A DNA stretch of 35,001 nucleotides from Sphingomonas sp. 28-63-12 (lineage in GTDB: Bacteria > Pseudomonadota > Alphaproteobacteria > Sphingomonadales > Sphingomonadaceae). This document shows positions 161 to 6,307 of this stretch, in pieces (positions within the stretch are counted from its first letter, which is position 1; each line of letters begins with the position of its first letter). Location: assembly GCA_002281535.1 (NCBI GenBank), contig NCGD01000027.1, positions 1-35,001 of the forward strand, written 5' to 3'. The notes under the pieces are model-generated. The model worked only from the letters and a program-made list of their open reading frames with translations, had not been told where the DNA came from and made no database searches. Position numbers and translations under genes: made by a program.

Positions 161-514
161 ATGACTTCTGCAAAGACAATTGCCGCTGTCCGTATCGCCC
201 GGTCCCTGAAGCCCGCCGAAAAGGCGGTCAACGAGGCGGCCATCAAGGTATTGGCGATTGGCACTGCCGTCCTGACCGCACGGGTCGACGGCACTTTCCA
301 TCCATTGGAGAGTCAGGCTGCTGTCGATTTTGTCGGCGATGCGACGGCCAAGGTTTTCGGGGCGATGCGCGATATCCAGAACGCCCACCGAGAATTGCGT
401 GCCGCCGCCGTGCACCACAATGTGCTTGGCCAGGGCGACATCTTCGAGACGCCGCCGCGCGATACGCCGCATGGTCTCGCCGAACCGGCAATACCGCTTG
501 TCGCCGCCGCCTGA
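161..514 (+). CDS. Conserved-looking hypothetical protein, 117 aa
   Basis: The ATG at 161 follows a good ribosome binding site (GGAGGA at 149-154), which decides the start. The product is a soluble, alanine-rich and apparently mostly helical protein with no signal peptide and no membrane segment. The middle (about residues 60-95) contains a stretch with repeated charged and alanine residues that could pack as helices; the tail from about residue 100 is proline-rich and probably disordered. I do not recognise a catalytic motif or a named family. It is followed 45 bp downstream by a membrane protein and a MarR-like regulator on the same strand, so it may belong to a small operon with them. Codon usage resembles that of its neighbours. 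Confidence 0.6.
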   Translation: MTSAKTIAAVRIARSLKPAEKAVNEAAIKVLAIGTAVLTARVDGTFHPLESQAAVDFVGDATAKVFGAMRDIQNAHRELRAAAVHHNVLGQGDIFETPPRDTPHGLAEPAIPLVAAA

Positions 515-559
515 TACGGCGATTGACACCGATGCCCATCGCTGCTGCGAAACCCGAAG

Positions 560-994
560 ATGACAATCCCGGTATATCTCTCGATCCTCGTGGTGTGCTG
601 CCTGTACGCGCTGGTGCGTGGCGGCGCACCCGAGCGATTGGGCACAGCAGCGCTGCTGGTCGCGATTGTCGCCAGCCGCTTCGCCCCGGCATCGGGGCCC
701 GTGCGATTCCAGACGATCGAATATGGCATCATGGCCGTGGATGCGGCATTGCTGGCCGTAATCCTGATCATCGCGGTGCGGGCACAGCGTTTTTGGCCGA
801 TGTGGATGGCCGCCATCCTGCTCGATACCGTGCTGACGCATCTGCTGATGCTGTCGCCGAAACTGATCCCCTGGTCATATTCGGTGATGAACGCGGCGTG
901 GAGCTATCCCATCCCCATCATCCTGGCGATCGGCGCATGGCGTCATCGGGCACGGATCGACACCTATGGCAGCGATCCCGCCTGGAACCATTGA
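560..994 (+). CDS. Small polytopic membrane protein, 144 aa, unknown function
   Basis: The product has four to five hydrophobic segments: about residues 4-20 (YLSILVVCCLYALV), 28-41, 58-73 (DAALLAVILIIAVRA), 78-97 and 112-128. A short basic tail follows. No catalytic motif or named transporter family is evident. The ATG at 560 has only a weak upstream purine stretch, so the exact start is less certain than for the flanking genes. It lies 18 bp upstream of a MarR-like regulator in the same direction, which suggests co-transcription; small membrane proteins paired with MarR regulators are sometimes transported-compound or stress systems, but nothing in this protein shows that. Confidence 0.65.
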   Translation: MTIPVYLSILVVCCLYALVRGGAPERLGTAALLVAIVASRFAPASGPVRFQTIEYGIMAVDAALLAVILIIAVRAQRFWPMWMAAILLDTVLTHLLMLSPKLIPWSYSVMNAAWSYPIPIILAIGAWRHRARIDTYGSDPAWNH

Positions 995-1012
995 TAAAAT
1001 CGAGGACTGACC

Positions 1013-1444
1013 ATGTCCATTGAGCTGCGCAACATCCAAGGCACATTGGCCGAAATCGACGAGCTGGAAGCCGTGCTGGCCTATGCGCGCTCGCGGGTTC
1101 TGTCGTTCGAAAAGCCGCAGGACCTTGCCGCCGAAGTCTATCAGGCGCGGCGCGTGCGCGACGCCTGTTTTGGTGACGACGCCGCGCTGTTTGGCGAGCC
1201 GGCTTGGGATATCTTGCTCGACCTTTATTCCGCCGGTGCCGCTGGCCGGGAAATGTCGATCTCGACAGCCTGCTCGGCGGCCAATGTGCCGAGCACCACC
1301 GCCTTGCGCCATCTCGGCAATCTCGAAGAGCGCGGGCTGATCGAGCGGCAGGCCGATCCTGAAGACCGTCGACGTTCGATCGTCAAGCTGAGCAGCAAGG
1401 CATCAGCGATCATGACCGAATGGCTGGTCCGCCACGATCGCTGA
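1013..1444 (+). CDS. MarR-like winged-helix transcriptional regulator
   Basis: This 143-residue protein has the MarR arrangement: an N-terminal helical dimerisation part (about residues 1-55) followed by a winged helix-turn-helix. The recognition region is seen at about residues 84-107 (SISTACSAANVPSTTALRHL, with LEERGLIER following), and the wing carries the typical D-P-E-D-R-R-R motif followed by V-K-L-S. The start is supported by GAGG at 1002-1005, about seven bases before the ATG. MarR proteins are usually local repressors relieved by small molecules; the likely targets are the preceding membrane-protein gene or its own operon, but no operator was identified. It converges on the MucR-type gene, with only 15 bp between stop codons. 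Confidence 0.8.
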   Translation: MSIELRNIQGTLAEIDELEAVLAYARSRVLSFEKPQDLAAEVYQARRVRDACFGDDAALFGEPAWDILLDLYSAGAAGREMSISTACSAANVPSTTALRHLGNLEERGLIERQADPEDRRRSIVKLSSKASAIMTEWLVRHDR

Positions 1445-1459
1445 AGGCGCCGATCGCGC

Positions 1460-1870
1460 CTATCGACGCTTGCGCGGCTTGGTGCCCAGGCCAATCTTCA
1501 TCGCCAGCTCCCGACGCTTCTGAGCGTAGTTGGGGGCAACCATCGGATAGTCGGCCGGCAGTTTCCACTTGGCCCGATATTCATCAGGCGTCATCTGATA
1601 TTGGTTCATCAGGTGGCGCTTGAGCATCTTCAGCTTCTTGCCGTCCTCCAGACAGACGATAAAATCGGGCTTGATCGACGATCGCACCGACACGGCCGGC
1701 TCTTGCACGACCTCTGGCTCGACAATGCTGCCAAGATCGGCCAGCGCCCCATGAACATGATGAATCATGCGGGGAACATCCGAAACGGAGATACTATTAT
1801 TGCTGATATAGGCGGCCACAATATCTGCCGTCAGCGAAACCAGAGCCACATCCGAACCAACACCGCTCAT
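1460..1870 (-). CDS. MucR/Ros family transcriptional regulator with incomplete zinc-ligand set
   Basis: The 136-residue protein matches the alphaproteobacterial MucR/Ros family in length and sequence. The C-terminal half has FIVCLEDGKKLKMLKRHL and then MTPDEYRAKWKLP-DYPMVAPNYAQKR, the family signature. Classical Ros zinc fingers use C-x2-C-x9-H-x3-H; here the second ligand is Asp (C-L-E-D) and the fourth is Gln (H-L-M-N-Q), so at most three classical ligands remain. MucR-like proteins lacking zinc are known in rhizobia, so this is likely still a DNA-binding protein that recognises AT-rich DNA. Family members often repress surface polysaccharide, motility and cell-cycle genes and repress themselves. 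The start has AAGGAA about eight bases upstream, and the upstream sequence contains AT-rich blocks suited to autoregulation. Confidence 0.88.
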   Translation of the reverse strand: MSGVGSDVALVSLTADIVAAYISNNSISVSDVPRMIHHVHGALADLGSIVEPEVVQEPAVSVRSSIKPDFIVCLEDGKKLKMLKRHLMNQYQMTPDEYRAKWKLPADYPMVAPNYAQKRRELAMKIGLGTKPRKRR

Positions 1871-2222
1871 TCAGCCATTCCTTCTTTGCCAAGTTAAGAA
1901 TTGTCTAACCAATATTCATCCAATTCGGACTTATGGCAAGCCGTCGCCTTCAACCCGGCGCGATCATTGGCGGCGCACCCGTGCCCAATGCTCGGTTTCC
2001 GGCGATTATCGGGCCTTTGCGTCTACCGAATATTCGGTTGCCGGGTAGCATTTTGGCGGGATCCGGCGCCGCGCGGCTCCGGTCGCGGCAGGGCTATAGG
2101 CACGCCGCCGAGCACCATTCTCAGCGTCGCACCCGAATCAATCTCGCCAACAAAGGCGCCGAAAAATGCCCGGCTATCTTCAGGGAGCCGGCACCTCCAC
2201 GGTGGCGGCGGGGCGGTGCGCT
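1871..2222. other. 352-bp intergenic region: mucR leader plus unexplained sequence
   Basis: The right-to-left promoter of the MucR-type gene should lie at about 1880-1930, where the only AT-rich stretch (around TTAGACAATTCTTAA on the minus strand) occurs. The rest, about 1940-2222, has no convincing gene: open frames on both strands here have low-complexity Arg/Pro/Ala compositions and no ribosome binding site. A perfect 14-bp palindrome lies at 2025-2038. No terminator with a T-run is seen after the SET gene that ends at 2223. Confidence 0.5.
2025..2038. promoter_or_regulatory. Perfect 14-bp palindrome ACCGAATATTCGGT
   Basis: ACCGAATATTCGGT is its own reverse complement. It lies alone in the gap between the MucR-type gene and the end of the SET gene. 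It could be a dimeric regulator site or a chance palindrome; no second copy was noticed in the window. Confidence 0.35.
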
Positions 2223-3398
2223 TCAGCCCGTCCCCAACCGGCCTTCGGGCGACACCAACGGCACCCCCACATTGTCGCGGCGGCGCAAATAGGGCGCGAC
2301 CAGATTGCGGGCGCGAAACCATTCCTGAGCATCGGGTGCCAGCGTCTCGAAATTGCCGATCACGCGCCGGCAATCCTCGCTGCGGCACTGGCAGATCATG
2401 TGCCAGTTGCTTTCCTTCAGCGTCGTCGAATAGTCCCAGCTGATCTCGTCTCCCGGCGCGATCGGGCGGATCGCGACCAGATGGACGCCATCATCGGTGA
2501 AGCGCAGCCCGGCATTGGGCGAACAGCTATGGTTGATCAGATCGTCAATCCGCCCCGATGGCCCCATATAATGATCGGGTGTCACCTGGACGAACCGGTC
2601 GCTGCCGCCGCGCATCAGGCTGGGCACCTGATCGGCGCGGAAGCGCCGGCCGGTGAACTTCACGATCTGATCGCCCTCGTCAAAATTGACCGCAGCGAAC
2701 ACCGCCTTGCCGAGATGGGTCTCGCCCACAGAAAACAGGTTTGCGGCGGGGCGATATTTGTCGAGCACGTAGAAATTGCCGTTGCGGAAGCCCAGCGAGC
2801 GGATCGGGTTGATCGTCGCCAAGCCGATCATGAACCACACACTGGCATGGCAGAGCAGCTCGACCAGGATATAGGCATAGCTGCCCACCGCGATGTCGCC
2901 CGTCCGCGTCGCGACGATGAGCGTGGCGAGATCACCAACGGTCCACAGCCCCCAGGCTGGCGATCGCTCGCGTGCGCGGTCCTGCTGAACGCTTTCCCAG
3001 GTGGGCCAGAAGCTGATCGGTACAGCCGCGACGACGAGCATATGCGCCCAGAACGCCGAGCTGAACATCGCCCAGAGCAGGATCGAAGCGAGGCAGGCCC
3101 CCATGCAGATCGTCTCACTGCGGGTCGGCGGGCTCCAGGCCGATCGCTCCCAGATACCGATCGTGACGACGATGCAGGCGGCTGCCGATACCAGGAACAC
3201 GATGCTTTGCGCGGTACCGGGGTTGACCGCGGCATAGGTGCTGGCCTCGACCAGCACGGCCGCGCTCCAGATCAGCCAGGACGCTCGATTGGGTTGGACA
3301 AGTTCGCGCTTCAGCCCCGTCAGGTAGACGGCATAGCCTGCGAAATTGGCCAGCACGGCAAGCAGGAACCAGGGCGCGATCGTCATATCCGTTACCAT
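2223..3398 (-). CDS. Multi-pass membrane protein fused to a SET-domain lysine methyltransferase
   Basis: The 391-residue product has two halves. Residues 1-196 hold about seven membrane segments (about 9-29, 39-57, 64-82, 97-113, 116-131, 150-165, 174-196). Two similar loops, QPNRASWLIW at 35-44 and ERSPAWGLW at 144-152, each follow a hydrophobic segment ending in charged residues, reminiscent of PQ-loop/SWEET repeats. Residues about 205-350 form a complete SET domain: GKAVFAAVNFDEGD at 230-243, NHSCSPN at 289-295, GDEISWDYS at 316-324, and a post-SET C-x-C-x4-C at 336-343. These are the residues that bind S-adenosylmethionine, place the target lysine and bind zinc, so the domain looks active. 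The substrate is unknown; a cytoplasmic protein recruited to the membrane is one possibility. The start is either 3398 or 3386 (second Met); neither has a strong ribosome binding site. Confidence 0.85.
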   Translation of the reverse strand: MVTDMTIAPWFLLAVLANFAGYAVYLTGLKRELVQPNRASWLIWSAAVLVEASTYAAVNPGTAQSIVFLVSAAACIVVTIGIWERSAWSPPTRSETICMGACLASILLWAMFSSAFWAHMLVVAAVPISFWPTWESVQQDRARERSPAWGLWTVGDLATLIVATRTGDIAVGSYAYILVELLCHASVWFMIGLATINPIRSLGFRNGNFYVLDKYRPAANLFSVGETHLGKAVFAAVNFDEGDQIVKFTGRRFRADQVPSLMRGGSDRFVQVTPDHYMGPSGRIDDLINHSCSPNAGLRFTDDGVHLVAIRPIAPGDEISWDYSTTLKESNWHMICQCRSEDCRRVIGNFETLAPDAQEWFRARNLVAPYLRRRDNVGVPLVSPEGRLGTG

Positions 3399-3742: not shown

Positions 3743-4747
3743 TCATGCCCCATTGCCCCGCCATTTCCGCCATAAATGCCGGGTGAGCAGCAGCGGGGGC
3801 ATGCGCAGCCAGTGCGAGCGGATATAGAAGCCAAGCCGCGTCGCCGGGCGGACCGCCTGGCCCCAGCCGTTACGCGCGGTCAGCCGGTGCAGATAGAGCG
3901 AATCGACCCGGTGGCGCGTCGCCCAGCCGGCGGGCAGTGCGGTGCCGTACAGCGCCTGCGCCAGCCGCACCGCGCGAGCGACTTCGCGTGACAGCCCGTG
4001 ATGCGCCGCGCGTGCCGCCACGCCGTCCAGCCCGAATTCGCCGATCAGCCGATCGACATCCCAGAGATTGCGCATCCCGCCCGCCAGATCACCATCGGCG
4101 AACAGATGCGCGGCGGCGTGGACGATCAGGTCGGCGGGTGACGGCACCCGCAGCCCGTTTTCGAGCGCCACGCTGTCGGCGATGATCCCCGCCGGATCGG
4201 GGGTGATCCGCGCTGTCAGCGGCAAAATCGTGTGGTGAACGTCGATCATCCGGTCCCGTTCGCGGTGGATCAGCGGCGGCAGCTCGTGCATCCAGCGGCG
4301 ATAATAGGCATCGTCATAGGGATCGGGTTTGACCCATTCCCAGCCGGCATTGAGCAGCGCCGCCTCGACCGCCTCGACCCGGCCACGCGGCACCAAGATA
4401 TCGAGATCGCCGATAAACCGCCCCTGCCCTGCCGCCAGCCCGGCTGCGACAAAGGCGGTGCCCTTGAGCAGCACCACGGGCAGATCAAGCGGGGCGAGCG
4501 CGCGGCGCGCCATTTCGGCTTCCCACAGGGCAGCGACCCGCCCCTGTTCGGCCGACGCCCGGCTATCGGCCAGGATCCGCGCGGCCGCCGCCGGCACGGG
4601 CAGCCCCGCCAGCCGGTGCGCGAGCGAACCGATCAATTGCTCGGCGCGGGCCATCGCCAGCAACGCCGTCCAGCCCGCGCCATCGAGCGCAGCGGTGCTC
4701 GCCGGATCGCGCAATGCATCGGCCAGCAGCCAGGCCGCGCGGGTCAT
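3743..4747 (-). CDS. Nucleotidyltransferase-family protein of the HprK-related kinase A cassette
   Basis: This 334-residue protein resembles the uncharacterised nucleotidyltransferase family PF14907. Its core is at about residues 90-125: LPVVLLKG, then RFIGDLDILV, where Asp114 and Asp116 fit the metal-binding D-x-D of the nucleotidyltransferase fold. Later IDVHH (about residue 166) and a helical C-terminal half with SPADLIVHAAAHLF fit the same family. Such proteins are thought to transfer a nucleotide to a protein or small molecule, but no substrate is established. Its start codon overlaps the stop of the kinase gene by four bases, so translation is probably coupled. It is the last gene of the four-gene cassette and ends about 100 bp before tRNA-Pro on the same strand. 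Confidence 0.8.
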   Translation of the reverse strand: MTRAAWLLADALRDPASTAALDGAGWTALLAMARAEQLIGSLAHRLAGLPVPAAAARILADSRASAEQGRVAALWEAEMARRALAPLDLPVVLLKGTAFVAAGLAAGQGRFIGDLDILVPRGRVEAVEAALLNAGWEWVKPDPYDDAYYRRWMHELPPLIHRERDRMIDVHHTILPLTARITPDPAGIIADSVALENGLRVPSPADLIVHAAAHLFADGDLAGGMRNLWDVDRLIGEFGLDGVAARAAHHGLSREVARAVRLAQALYGTALPAGWATRHRVDSLYLHRLTARNGWGQAVRPATRLGFYIRSHWLRMPPLLLTRHLWRKWRGNGA

Positions 4748-5604
4748 AGCGCCGCCCAGAGCTGATCGACCAGCGCGATCGCCGCTGTCGTATCGGGATA
4801 ATCGATCGCCCGCGCCGGGATGCCGCCGACCAGGGCGGTCAGCGCGTCGAATCCGCGCTCGCCCATCGCGACATAATTGGTCGATGCCTGGGTGAGCCGC
4901 ACGAACACCTCGCTGGGCGGCACCGGGCGGGTTGCCGCCTCGAAACCGAACCGGGGGAACAGCAACAGGCTGGGGCGGGCGGGCGTGTCCATGGCCGCAA
5001 TCGCCTGCGCATCGGGAACGAGATGGCGGATATCCCCCTTGGGCGTCGCCGCCAGCAGTGGCCCGAACCGGGCGGCGACCACGGCCTGCTCGATCACAGG
5101 GATCGCTGCATTCTTCAGGCTGACCAGCCGGGGAAAGGCGTGGACAAGGCCGGTCGCAGGATCGATCAGCGCGAATTCATCGCCCATCAGCCGCCAGCCG
5201 CGCGCCATCAGCAATGCCGCCAGTGTCGATTTGCCCGCGCCGGATTCGCCCGTCATCAGCAGTGCCCGCCCGCCCTTTTCGACGACCGAGGCGTGGAGCA
5301 GCAGATAGCGGCGCTGGCCAAGCGCCATTTGCAGGTTCATCGCCATTTCGGCGGCCAGCAGCCCGTGCGCCAGCGGCAGCGGCGCAGCTTCGGGCAGCAC
5401 ATAATCGCCACCAATCATCACCGAGGGGCGAACGAAACGCCGCCAGGGCCGCGCTGCAAACAGCCGGACGGTGAAATCGGCAATGCCGTTATCGGGCGCG
5501 GGATAGTCGCGGTAGAGATCGTGCAGCGCCGTTATCGGTAGCTGCCAGTCCGATCCGACGCGAAAGCCGATTGGGCCGATTCTGAGCTGGTGAACATATC
5601 TCAT
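4744..5604 (-). CDS. HprK-related kinase A
   Basis: The 286-residue protein carries the C-terminal kinase core of HPr kinase/phosphorylase: LLLHASVVE at 101-109, the Walker A loop GESGAGKST at 119-127, and the acidic motif GDEFALID at 141-148. The N-terminal 100 residues are unlike the HprK N-domain. HprK phosphorylates a serine of the carrier HPr, whereas related stand-alone kinases in lasso-peptide clusters phosphorylate a serine in a precursor peptide. Here no HPr or phosphotransferase gene is nearby; the partners are a PqqD-like protein and a nucleotidyltransferase, the set named HPr-rel-A in protein family databases. The gene overlaps both neighbours by four bases. The substrate is unknown; a cassette-specific protein or peptide is my inference. 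Confidence 0.85.
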   Translation of the reverse strand: MRYVHQLRIGPIGFRVGSDWQLPITALHDLYRDYPAPDNGIADFTVRLFAARPWRRFVRPSVMIGGDYVLPEAAPLPLAHGLLAAEMAMNLQMALGQRRYLLLHASVVEKGGRALLMTGESGAGKSTLAALLMARGWRLMGDEFALIDPATGLVHAFPRLVSLKNAAIPVIEQAVVAARFGPLLAATPKGDIRHLVPDAQAIAAMDTPARPSLLLFPRFGFEAATRPVPPSEVFVRLTQASTNYVAMGERGFDALTALVGGIPARAIDYPDTTAAIALVDQLWAAL

Positions 5605-5876
5605 CGCCGCTCGACCAGTCCGGCGGCGACCAGTTCGTCGAGCCGGGCGAGCAGTGCCGCCGGATCGGCGTCGCCCAGATCATATTCGTCGCCCAGTCGC
5701 GCCAGCAAGGCCGCGCCGGTCAGCGCGCCGGCCGCCAGCGCATCGAGAATTTCAGGGGCGGGCGGCGCCAGGATATGGGTGATGCCGGAAGCACGGTGAA
5801 AGACGAGGGTCAGCTCGTCGAGCTGCACGGCCCGCAGCGTTTCAGCCGGCATCGACCGATAGCAGGGCCCCGCCAC
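5601..5876 (-). CDS. PqqD-like protein of the HPr-rel-A cassette
   Basis: The 91-residue protein matches the small winged-helix PqqD family as found next to HprK-related kinase A: LDELTLVFHRASGITHIL at about 19-36, then PAPEILDAL, then a C-terminal helical part ending LDELVAAGLVERR. PqqD proteins bind a peptide or leader sequence and present it to a modifying enzyme, which suggests a substrate-binding role for this cassette. The frame begins with GTG at 5876; an ATG at 5852 would shorten it by eight residues. I favour the GTG because residues before the ATG (YRSMPAETL) look like the conserved start of the family. It is separated by five bases from the upstream gene and overlaps the kinase gene by four. 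Confidence 0.8.
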   Translation of the reverse strand: MAGPCYRSMPAETLRAVQLDELTLVFHRASGITHILAPPAPEILDALAAGALTGAALLARLGDEYDLGDADPAALLARLDELVAAGLVERR

Positions 5877-5881
5877 GGCGA

Positions 5882-6307
5882 TTAGCCGCGCGGCATCTGC
5901 AGCGAGGCAAAACAGGTAAAGCCGCTGGTGCCCGATTGCAGGCGGCGGATATATTGCAGATAGGCGCGGGTGCGATCGCTATCCATGCCCGGCAGCCGCC
6001 CACCCGCCATCGCCCGGCGGACATCCTCGCCCTTGAAGGGCACGCGTGCGGGCGGGAAAGCGCCTGCCGTGCCGACCGGCACCAGGGTGCCATCGGCCGC
6101 GATATAATTGGCCGAGCGCGCCGGATCGGGCACCGGAATCTCGCAGGTCAGGACCGATGCGGTGGTTTGCGCCAGTGCGGGCCGGATCGAGACAATCGCC
6201 GTCGCCCCGACAGCGCCCAGCATCAGCGCGCGCCGGCGCGTGGGCTGGCGATCTTCGGCCACGCCGGTCGCCGGGGGCGTTTCTGCCGGGGGAATATCGT
6301 CGCTCAT
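5882..6307 (-). CDS. Secreted protein with twin-arginine-like signal, first gene of the HPr-rel-A cassette
   Basis: The 141-residue protein starts with a hydrophilic, disordered region of about 24 residues, then RRRALMLGAVGATAIVSI and a cleavage-like ALAQ at about residue 46, a twin-arginine-type or long Sec signal. The mature part (about 95 residues) has two cysteines, in VLTCEIPV and GFTCFASL, that could form a disulfide, and short motifs such as NYIAADGTLVPVG. No enzyme family is recognised. It is separated by five bases from the PqqD-like gene, so it is part of the same transcript. That location makes it a candidate substrate or exported effector of the kinase and nucleotidyltransferase, but this is inference from position only. 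Confidence 0.65.
   Translation of the reverse strand: MSDDIPPAETPPATGVAEDRQPTRRRALMLGAVGATAIVSIRPALAQTTASVLTCEIPVPDPARSANYIAADGTLVPVGTAGAFPPARVPFKGEDVRRAMAGGRLPGMDSDRTRAYLQYIRRLQSGTSGFTCFASLQMPRG

Follow-up and report, generated by a model that had tools for sequence, protein, structure and literature searches.

Analysis of the window, i.e. the whole stretch of 35,001 nucleotides considered here, and comparison with genomes of related bacteria identify a fusion of a seven-helix membrane domain with a SET domain as a real and conserved architecture, which is encoded in the window by a single gene. The sequence-only reading of this DNA had described about seven hydrophobic segments followed by a SET domain, and this is borne out by seven predicted helices and a Pfam SET match. 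It had also singled out two loops, QPNRASWLIW and ERSPAWGLW, along with the SET motifs NHSCSPN and GDEISWDYS and post-SET cysteines. Both loops are located in the membrane half with their key residues invariant, and the SET motifs lie at residues 289-295 and 316-324, followed by cysteines C336, C338 and C343. The parts of the gene, in window coordinates, are as follows.

2223..3398, minus strand: fusion gene of seven transmembrane helices (TM1-7) plus SET domain, protein P0002, 391 amino acids, ATG start, stop codon included.
3156..3380, minus strand: first triple-helix bundle, TM1-3, residues 7-81, from the AlphaFold2 helices.
3267..3296, minus strand: QPNRASWLIW, residues 35-44, TM1-TM2 loop and start of TM2, with invariant P36, S40, W41 and W44.
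3063..3122, minus strand: TM4, residues 93-112, predicted by both structure models as the helix linking the two bundles.
2817..3056, minus strand: second triple-helix bundle, TM5-7, residues 115-194, from both structure models.
2943..2969, minus strand: ERSPAWGLW, residues 144-152, TM5-TM6 loop and counterpart of the first loop, with invariant E144, W149 and W152.
2742..2813, minus strand: linker from the membrane half to the SET half, residues 196-219, pLDDT below 50 (AlphaFold2).
2430..2711, minus strand: SET domain, residues 230-323, Pfam PF00856 (E 6.2e-12), with MLL1 and BurB as PDB matches.
2514..2534, minus strand: NHSCSPN, residues 289-295, with NHxCxPN in 71 of 71 listed loci.
2430..2438, minus strand: WDY, residues 321-323, Trp at the Phe/Tyr switch and then the conserved Tyr, from alignment to YDY of MLL1.
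2370..2393, minus strand: post-SET CxCx4C, residues 336-343, with CxCx4CR in 70 of 71 listed loci.

Scanning of genome contigs with the fusion matched at least 80 stretches; of the 80 listed, 72 were relatives, representing 71 distinct loci. Among the matches listed, all 71 loci carry the full fusion in a single uninterrupted open reading frame of 374-403 amino acids, and one intact fusion locus (L008) is from a complete chromosome. A frameshift or misassembly joining two genes, in favour of which nothing was found, is ruled out by this single frame, and we give such an artefact practically no credence. The search for the same fusion in other genomes, suggested by the sequence-only reading, thus succeeded, and 3 of 13 genomes of a second genus label carry the fusion as well. 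Nearly all titles of the matched loci, among the matches listed, are Sphingomonas or Sphingomonadales; the others are Sphingosinithalassobacter (L046), Stakelama (L058), an uncultured bacterium (L007), a Proteobacteria bacterium (L062) and an Arthrobacter (L060), the last of which has a match identical in strength to that of L059 and may be mislabelled. Within a set of 61 relatives, the fusion is present in 15 genomes, all of them among the 37 genomes of the same genus label (own genome included). In the order, 41 of 396 genomes gave a match at E ≤0.001: 23 of these matches are nearly full-length and from the same genus label, 17 comprise part of the SET half only, and one, from another genus label (G953), extends over residues 12-352 at 28% identity. 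Across 319 genomes of the phylum, both halves are matched only in the window's genome and in three others of the same genus; the remaining matches cover part of one half. Within this sampling, the fusion does not extend beyond one family. Compared with five relatives, the membrane half has dN/dS ratios of 0.05-0.23 and the SET half has ratios of 0.09-0.21, values that indicate purifying selection on both.

The SET half was matched by the Pfam model over residues 230-323 with 46.3 bits, against a curated cut-off of 22.4. No second Pfam model scored above its own cut-off in the 391-residue protein, an NCBIfam search of the protein gave no match, and a PHROGs search gave a match at chance level (E 0.3). 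Loss of the SET catalytic residues in relatives, which the sequence-only reading had named as an outcome that would speak against it, was not seen: NHxCxPN and WDY are kept in all 71 loci among the matches listed, and CxCx4CR in 70 of them. In an alignment of 66 rows (the window plus 65 of the 71 loci), N289, H290, C292, P294, N295, D322, Y323, C336 and C338 are invariant, and C343 is found in 65 rows, the remaining one having X at this position.

By alignment to MLL1, W321 falls at the Phe/Tyr product-specificity switch and is Trp in 66 of 66 aligned rows, and in the same register T325, invariant in a 36-row alignment, takes the place of F1056 of Set1. Set against the passages covered of PMC3585878, in which the F1056A substitution abolished the activity of Set1, two positions of the predicted lysine channel are unusual, with Trp at the switch and Thr at the F1056 place. 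Of the features expected of a lysine methyltransferase, the post-SET cysteines are thus present, whereas the Phe/Tyr switch residue and the aromatic at the F1056 place are not. The GRG of MLL1 corresponds to GKA in most fusion rows, K231 and A232 each occurring in 90% or more of 36 rows. The switch residue was also compared across 46 SET rows, some of them duplicates and 14 of them unreadable by pattern at this position: all 12 fusion-clade rows have Trp, and the rows outside the clade have Phe (8, including the L184 fusion), Tyr (8), Ile (2) or Asn (2).

Sequence matches of the SET half in the PDB include MLL1 (E 2e-8) and other histone enzymes, along with the bacterial BurB (E 2.8e-5; 9l4t/9l4v, E 1.8e-11 by profile), and a Foldseek search had MLL-type chains at the top and BurB at rank 6. 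MLL1 scores higher than BurB in single-sequence, profile and fold comparisons. MLL1/Set1-type enzymes are the closest solved structures, with SET and post-SET aligned over residues 230-347 and the fold matched; the fusion differs from them in having Trp for Tyr at the switch, Thr at the F1056 place and an added membrane domain, and in being bacterial. With the short SET enzymes of bacteria, BurB included, the fusion has in common a SET core with NHxCxPN and DY, and the post-SET CxCx4C is also found in several of the SET rows compared. Unlike the fusion, the soluble bacterial SET rows compared carry no membrane half, and Trp at the switch in 71 of 71 listed loci sets the fusion apart from the bacterial short enzymes. 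The substrates identified so far for bacterial SET enzymes are, to our knowledge, few. BurB, a protein of 172 amino acids, has Met as its substrate and binds it by the main chain (PMC12542666, passages covered).

Structure prediction, proposed as a check by the sequence-only reading, gave seven helices in the membrane half in a 3+1+3 order, i.e. two triple-helix bundles and one joining helix, in both models. Helices of the AlphaFold2 model span residues 7-30, 38-58, 63-81, 93-112, 115-139 (with a break at 130), 147-164 and 171-194; those of the second model are nearly the same, with the third helix at 63-85. Confidence is middling in the whole-protein model (36 rows, mean pLDDT 74.8, pTM 0.55) as in the membrane-half model (66 rows, mean pLDDT 69.2, pTM 0.64). 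The whole-protein model further shows a low-confidence linker at residues 196-219 and strands in the SET half. P36, S40, W41, W44, E144, W149 and W152 are invariant in 66 of 66 rows, and E51, H119, D156, H184, W41, W44, W149 and W152 are kept in 65 or 66 of them. The mean number of Lys plus Arg over the 66 rows is 3.24 in loop 1-2, 2.32 in loop 3-4, 3.05 in loop 5-6 (which is acidic too, with a mean of 2.21 Asp plus Glu) and 2.42 in the tail after TM7, as compared to 0.17 at the N-terminal end, 0.00 in loop 2-3, 0.79 in loop 4-5 and 1.03 in loop 6-7. Because these positive charges follow the positive-inside rule, the C-terminus is probably inside, and the likely topology is N-out/C-in with the SET domain on the cytosolic side. 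SWEETs are N-out/C-in, as predicted for the fusion. The earlier view of a membrane-anchored SET protein is accordingly upheld, in that this is a real membrane protein with the tested SET motifs complete and with a SET domain that the charge distribution places in the cytosol.

Relatives of the membrane half also occur as stand-alone proteins. Among 239 other genomes of the class, 5 contain them (HMM E 8e-9 to 3e-15), and a wider profile gave matches in 24 of 398 phylum genomes, 20 of these with stand-alone proteins and 4 with fusions. Members of the stand-alone seven-helix family have the motif PHxxSWxxW or one of its variants, and a Pfam scan of four members assigned no family. Its homology to the membrane half of the fusion is seen in an hhalign comparison of 13 stand-alone rows plus L184 (probability 99.3, E 5e-20), and it differs from the fusion in having no SET domain; nor did the flanks of 26 stand-alone loci, about 1.5 kb long or shorter, show a SET match. 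This unnamed seven-helix family is found at loci L089-L093 and L128-L148, and L090 holds a tandem pair.

The sequence-only reading had likened the membrane half to PQ-loop/SWEET proteins, and this resemblance is supported at the level of predicted fold and, by profile, for the stand-alone relatives; it is not seen in the motif or the Pfam family. A Foldseek search with the membrane model placed KDEL receptors at ranks 1-8 and cystinosin at ranks 9 and 11, all of these being proteins of the 3+1+3 fold. Ranks 1-9 have probabilities of 0.98-1.00, E-values of 0.008-0.25 and query TM-scores of 0.55-0.60; probability is 0.51 at rank 11 and at most 0.12 for the rest of the best 50, and no hit in this search has an E-value of 0.001 or below. 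We take KDEL receptors to share the PQ-loop/SWEET-type fold. PQ-loop and SWEET families belong to one Pfam clan, according to the passages covered of PMC5972207. In a profile comparison, the 13 stand-alone rows plus L184 matched a profile of 18 SemiSWEET-type proteins with probability 70.7, E 3.8e-5 and score 33.7, as compared to 18.6 for the best of 100 column shuffles and 14.3 for the reversed profile. Scored singly against the 13 stand-alone rows, SemiSWEETs have a median of 20.6 and 41 hydrophobic control segments one of 11.4; 11 of the 18 SemiSWEETs lie above the best of the 41 controls and 7 do not. Since the fusion rows alone gave no match to the SemiSWEET profile, this link of the membrane half rests on the stand-alone relatives. 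The fusion profile A2 had no match among PDB sequences.

The Pro-Gln motif is absent from the fusion rows of the 66-row alignment: at the aligned place, repeat 1 has V, A, T, L, I, S or M, and repeat 2 keeps the Pro (P132, 65 of 66 rows) followed by Thr rather than Gln. The search of the membrane half with PQ-loop family profiles that the sequence-only reading had advised came out negative, the Pfam PQ-loop profile matching neither P0002, nor four stand-alone relatives, nor 25 members of A2, and finding nothing in the window's genome. The fusion thus has the 3+1+3 helix plan in common with the PQ-loop, SWEET and SemiSWEET proteins (the MtN3-like clan), cystinosin and the KDEL receptor, and differs from the PQ-loop/MtN3-like clan by the absence of the Pro-Gln motif and of a Pfam match and by its fused enzyme. 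At the fold level, the PQ-loop/SWEET reading is supported by the models. An EptA-like membrane half was rejected, as the Pfam matches are weak (E 0.35 and 0.065, below cut-off) and occur in 2 of 25 members.

The fusion clade is strongly supported in a SET tree of 40 rows (100/97), in which the SET domain of L184 pairs with the stand-alone SET of L205 (100/97). In a membrane-half tree of 26 rows, L184 is sister to the fusion clade (99/97, on a long branch), and it represents a second SET type fused to a relative of this membrane domain. A single fusion event for all is not supported for L184, given the grouping of its SET half with the L205 stand-alone SET; the trees suggest either that the fusion arose twice or that one SET domain was exchanged. 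In L205 itself, the stand-alone SET frame (384-998, plus strand) lies directly before the fusion gene (988-2142, plus strand). The SET half of the L071 fusion (3971-5119) groups with L025 and L040 inside the Sphingomonas clade, and its membrane half is basal to the other fusions of this clade, as if the halves had different histories through exchange, or as if one half were changing fast.

Downstream neighbours were counted in the 68 listed loci with at least 3,000 bases on that side (3 of the 71 had less). A gene for a CHASE4-HAMP-HATPase kinase is convergent with the fusion in 46 of the 68, a receiver-GGDEF-EAL gene lies near it in 44, and neither is present in 22. Domains of these neighbours were read in L003 and L071, the kinase of the latter being without CHASE4. 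Two of the three loci under the second genus label (L205 and L206, with the domains read in L206) keep the order of kinase and GGDEF-EAL gene, and in L184 a CHASE4-GGDEF-EAL gene lies on the opposite side of the fusion. Among the 61 relatives, a close kinase homologue (E <1e-100) of at least 60% identity occurs in 15 of 15 fusion genomes; 8 of the 61 genomes have a homologue of 52-58% identity and no fusion, and 14 of the 37 same-genus genomes have neither. The co-occurrence may only reflect kinship, because identity is 52-58% in the kinase-only genomes versus at least 60% in the others. In the window's genome the kinase pair is not adjacent to the fusion, being found on contig C29, which ends 0.6 kb past the kinase. 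As the pair is convergent with the fusion, they do not form one operon. The kinase and GGDEF-EAL pair is the best first guess for a partner, and is offered as a guess only.

Upstream, sulfate-activation genes are found on the same strand in 17-18 of the 71 listed loci (e.g. L017, L033 and L067); from the Pfam matches of L032 and L033, we take them to be cysD, cysN/C and a cysQ-like gene. Other upstream clusters are of a presumably dapE-like type in 12 listed loci and of a presumably dinB-like type in 5, and tRNA-Pro(cgg) lies upstream in 4 of the 71. As upstream genes vary between lineages, the sulfur genes may be there by chance synteny.

The fusion, its predicted fold and likely topology, its conserved motifs, the selection on it and its neighbours are all drawn from sequences or models, and on this footing we propose, at about an even chance, an inner-membrane methyltransferase in which the 3+1+3 bundle places or gates a cytosolic SET domain acting on a membrane-near protein. 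The seven-helix domain, belonging to an unnamed bacterial membrane family, would sit N-out/C-in in the inner membrane, and a short flexible linker would tether the complete SET domain to it on the cytosolic side. By binding a small ligand or peptide at the membrane, the bundle would place or gate the SET domain, which would use S-adenosylmethionine to methylate a protein near the membrane. First candidate acceptors, from their frequency as neighbouring genes, would be the CHASE4-HAMP kinase and the receiver-GGDEF-EAL protein of cyclic-di-GMP signalling. Ligand binding, gating, the acceptor and the kinase link are the steps that we infer. A bolder version, which we consider doubtful, is a one-chain device whose PQ-loop/KDEL-receptor-like bundle would deliver or sense a small molecule, with the Trp-pocket SET domain methylating either that molecule or, once the molecule is bound, a signalling kinase of the cyclic-di-GMP network. 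We know of neither transport-coupled methylation nor a ligand-gated SET receptor in any organism.

It is possible, and we put it forward tentatively, that the bundle moves or hands over an amino acid-like molecule and that this molecule is what the SET domain methylates, much as BurB converts free methionine to S-methylmethionine (PMC12542666, passages covered). Apart from the placing of BurB among the SET matches by both sequence and fold, this would agree with the carriage of cystine, lysine or arginine by PQ-loop proteins (PMC5972207, passages covered), with a switch Trp and a missing F1056-place aromatic that are unlike the lysine methyltransferases of the passages covered of PMC3585878, and with the same-strand sulfate-activation genes. 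However, MLL1 scores above BurB by sequence, profile and fold, the upstream genes differ from lineage to lineage, and there is no substrate-binding residue known in common, Met being held through the main chain in BurB.

The two remaining alternatives each deny a function to one half. A membrane half that is a mere anchor for an ordinary bacterial SET methyltransferase, with neither ligand nor transport, would be the simplest use of a membrane domain and would suit a linker that looks flexible in the model. We consider it unlikely, as conservation is about equal in the two halves, the retained E51, H119, D156, H184, W41, W44, W149 and W152 would be superfluous in a mere anchor, and in L184 another SET type is joined to a relative of the same membrane domain. 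The reverse case leaves the work to the membrane half and makes the SET half a binding module without catalysis; it draws on GKA in place of the MLL1 GRG in most rows and on Trp at the switch, but seems very improbable to us given active-site and post-SET residues that are invariant in 66 rows (C343 in 65) and that binding alone would presumably not require.

No report of this pairing of a seven-helix membrane domain with SET was found in the literature, judged by titles, abstract openings and passages of PMC3980110, PMC5742349 and PMC5972207, most subscription papers lying outside this scope. Duplication of PQ-loop and SWEET units and their fusion with one another are described in the passages covered of PMC5742349 and PMC5972207, and the main texts of these two papers do not contain the word methyltransferase. 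The architecture, absent from the literature searched, combines one known domain with a membrane domain of known fold type, and the mechanism proposed for it is plausible but unproven. A membrane-bound SET domain with receptor- or carrier-like input would offer a route to test SET methylation in bacterial envelope signalling or in the modification of carried molecules, and the fusion is a conserved and genetically simple system for doing so. It also points to an unnamed seven-helix family that occurs in several of the phylum's lineages and that, by its predicted fold, ties bacteria to KDEL receptors and cystinosin.

A functional link of the fusion to the window's own neighbours is not supported: of the eight neighbouring genes sought in the 71 listed loci, four were found, only in L003, and four in none. 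The cluster at 3743-6307 (minus strand), common to L003 only among the 71 listed loci, encodes an uncharacterised NTP_transf_5 nucleotidyltransferase, an HPr-kinase-like protein (below cut-off) and two small proteins without a Pfam match, which by eye we take to be PqqD-like and to carry a twin-arginine-like signal, respectively. A ROS/MUCR regulator gene at 1463-1870 (minus strand) adjoins the fusion and precedes a MarR-type gene; it lies on the side of the fusion that the kinase pair occupies in the close relative L003. In another genome, a short broken piece of a second fusion copy (L087, G036:C4:143473-143664) and a piece of a second kinase copy (G036:C4:144199-144795) both lie about 2 kb from an intact fusion.
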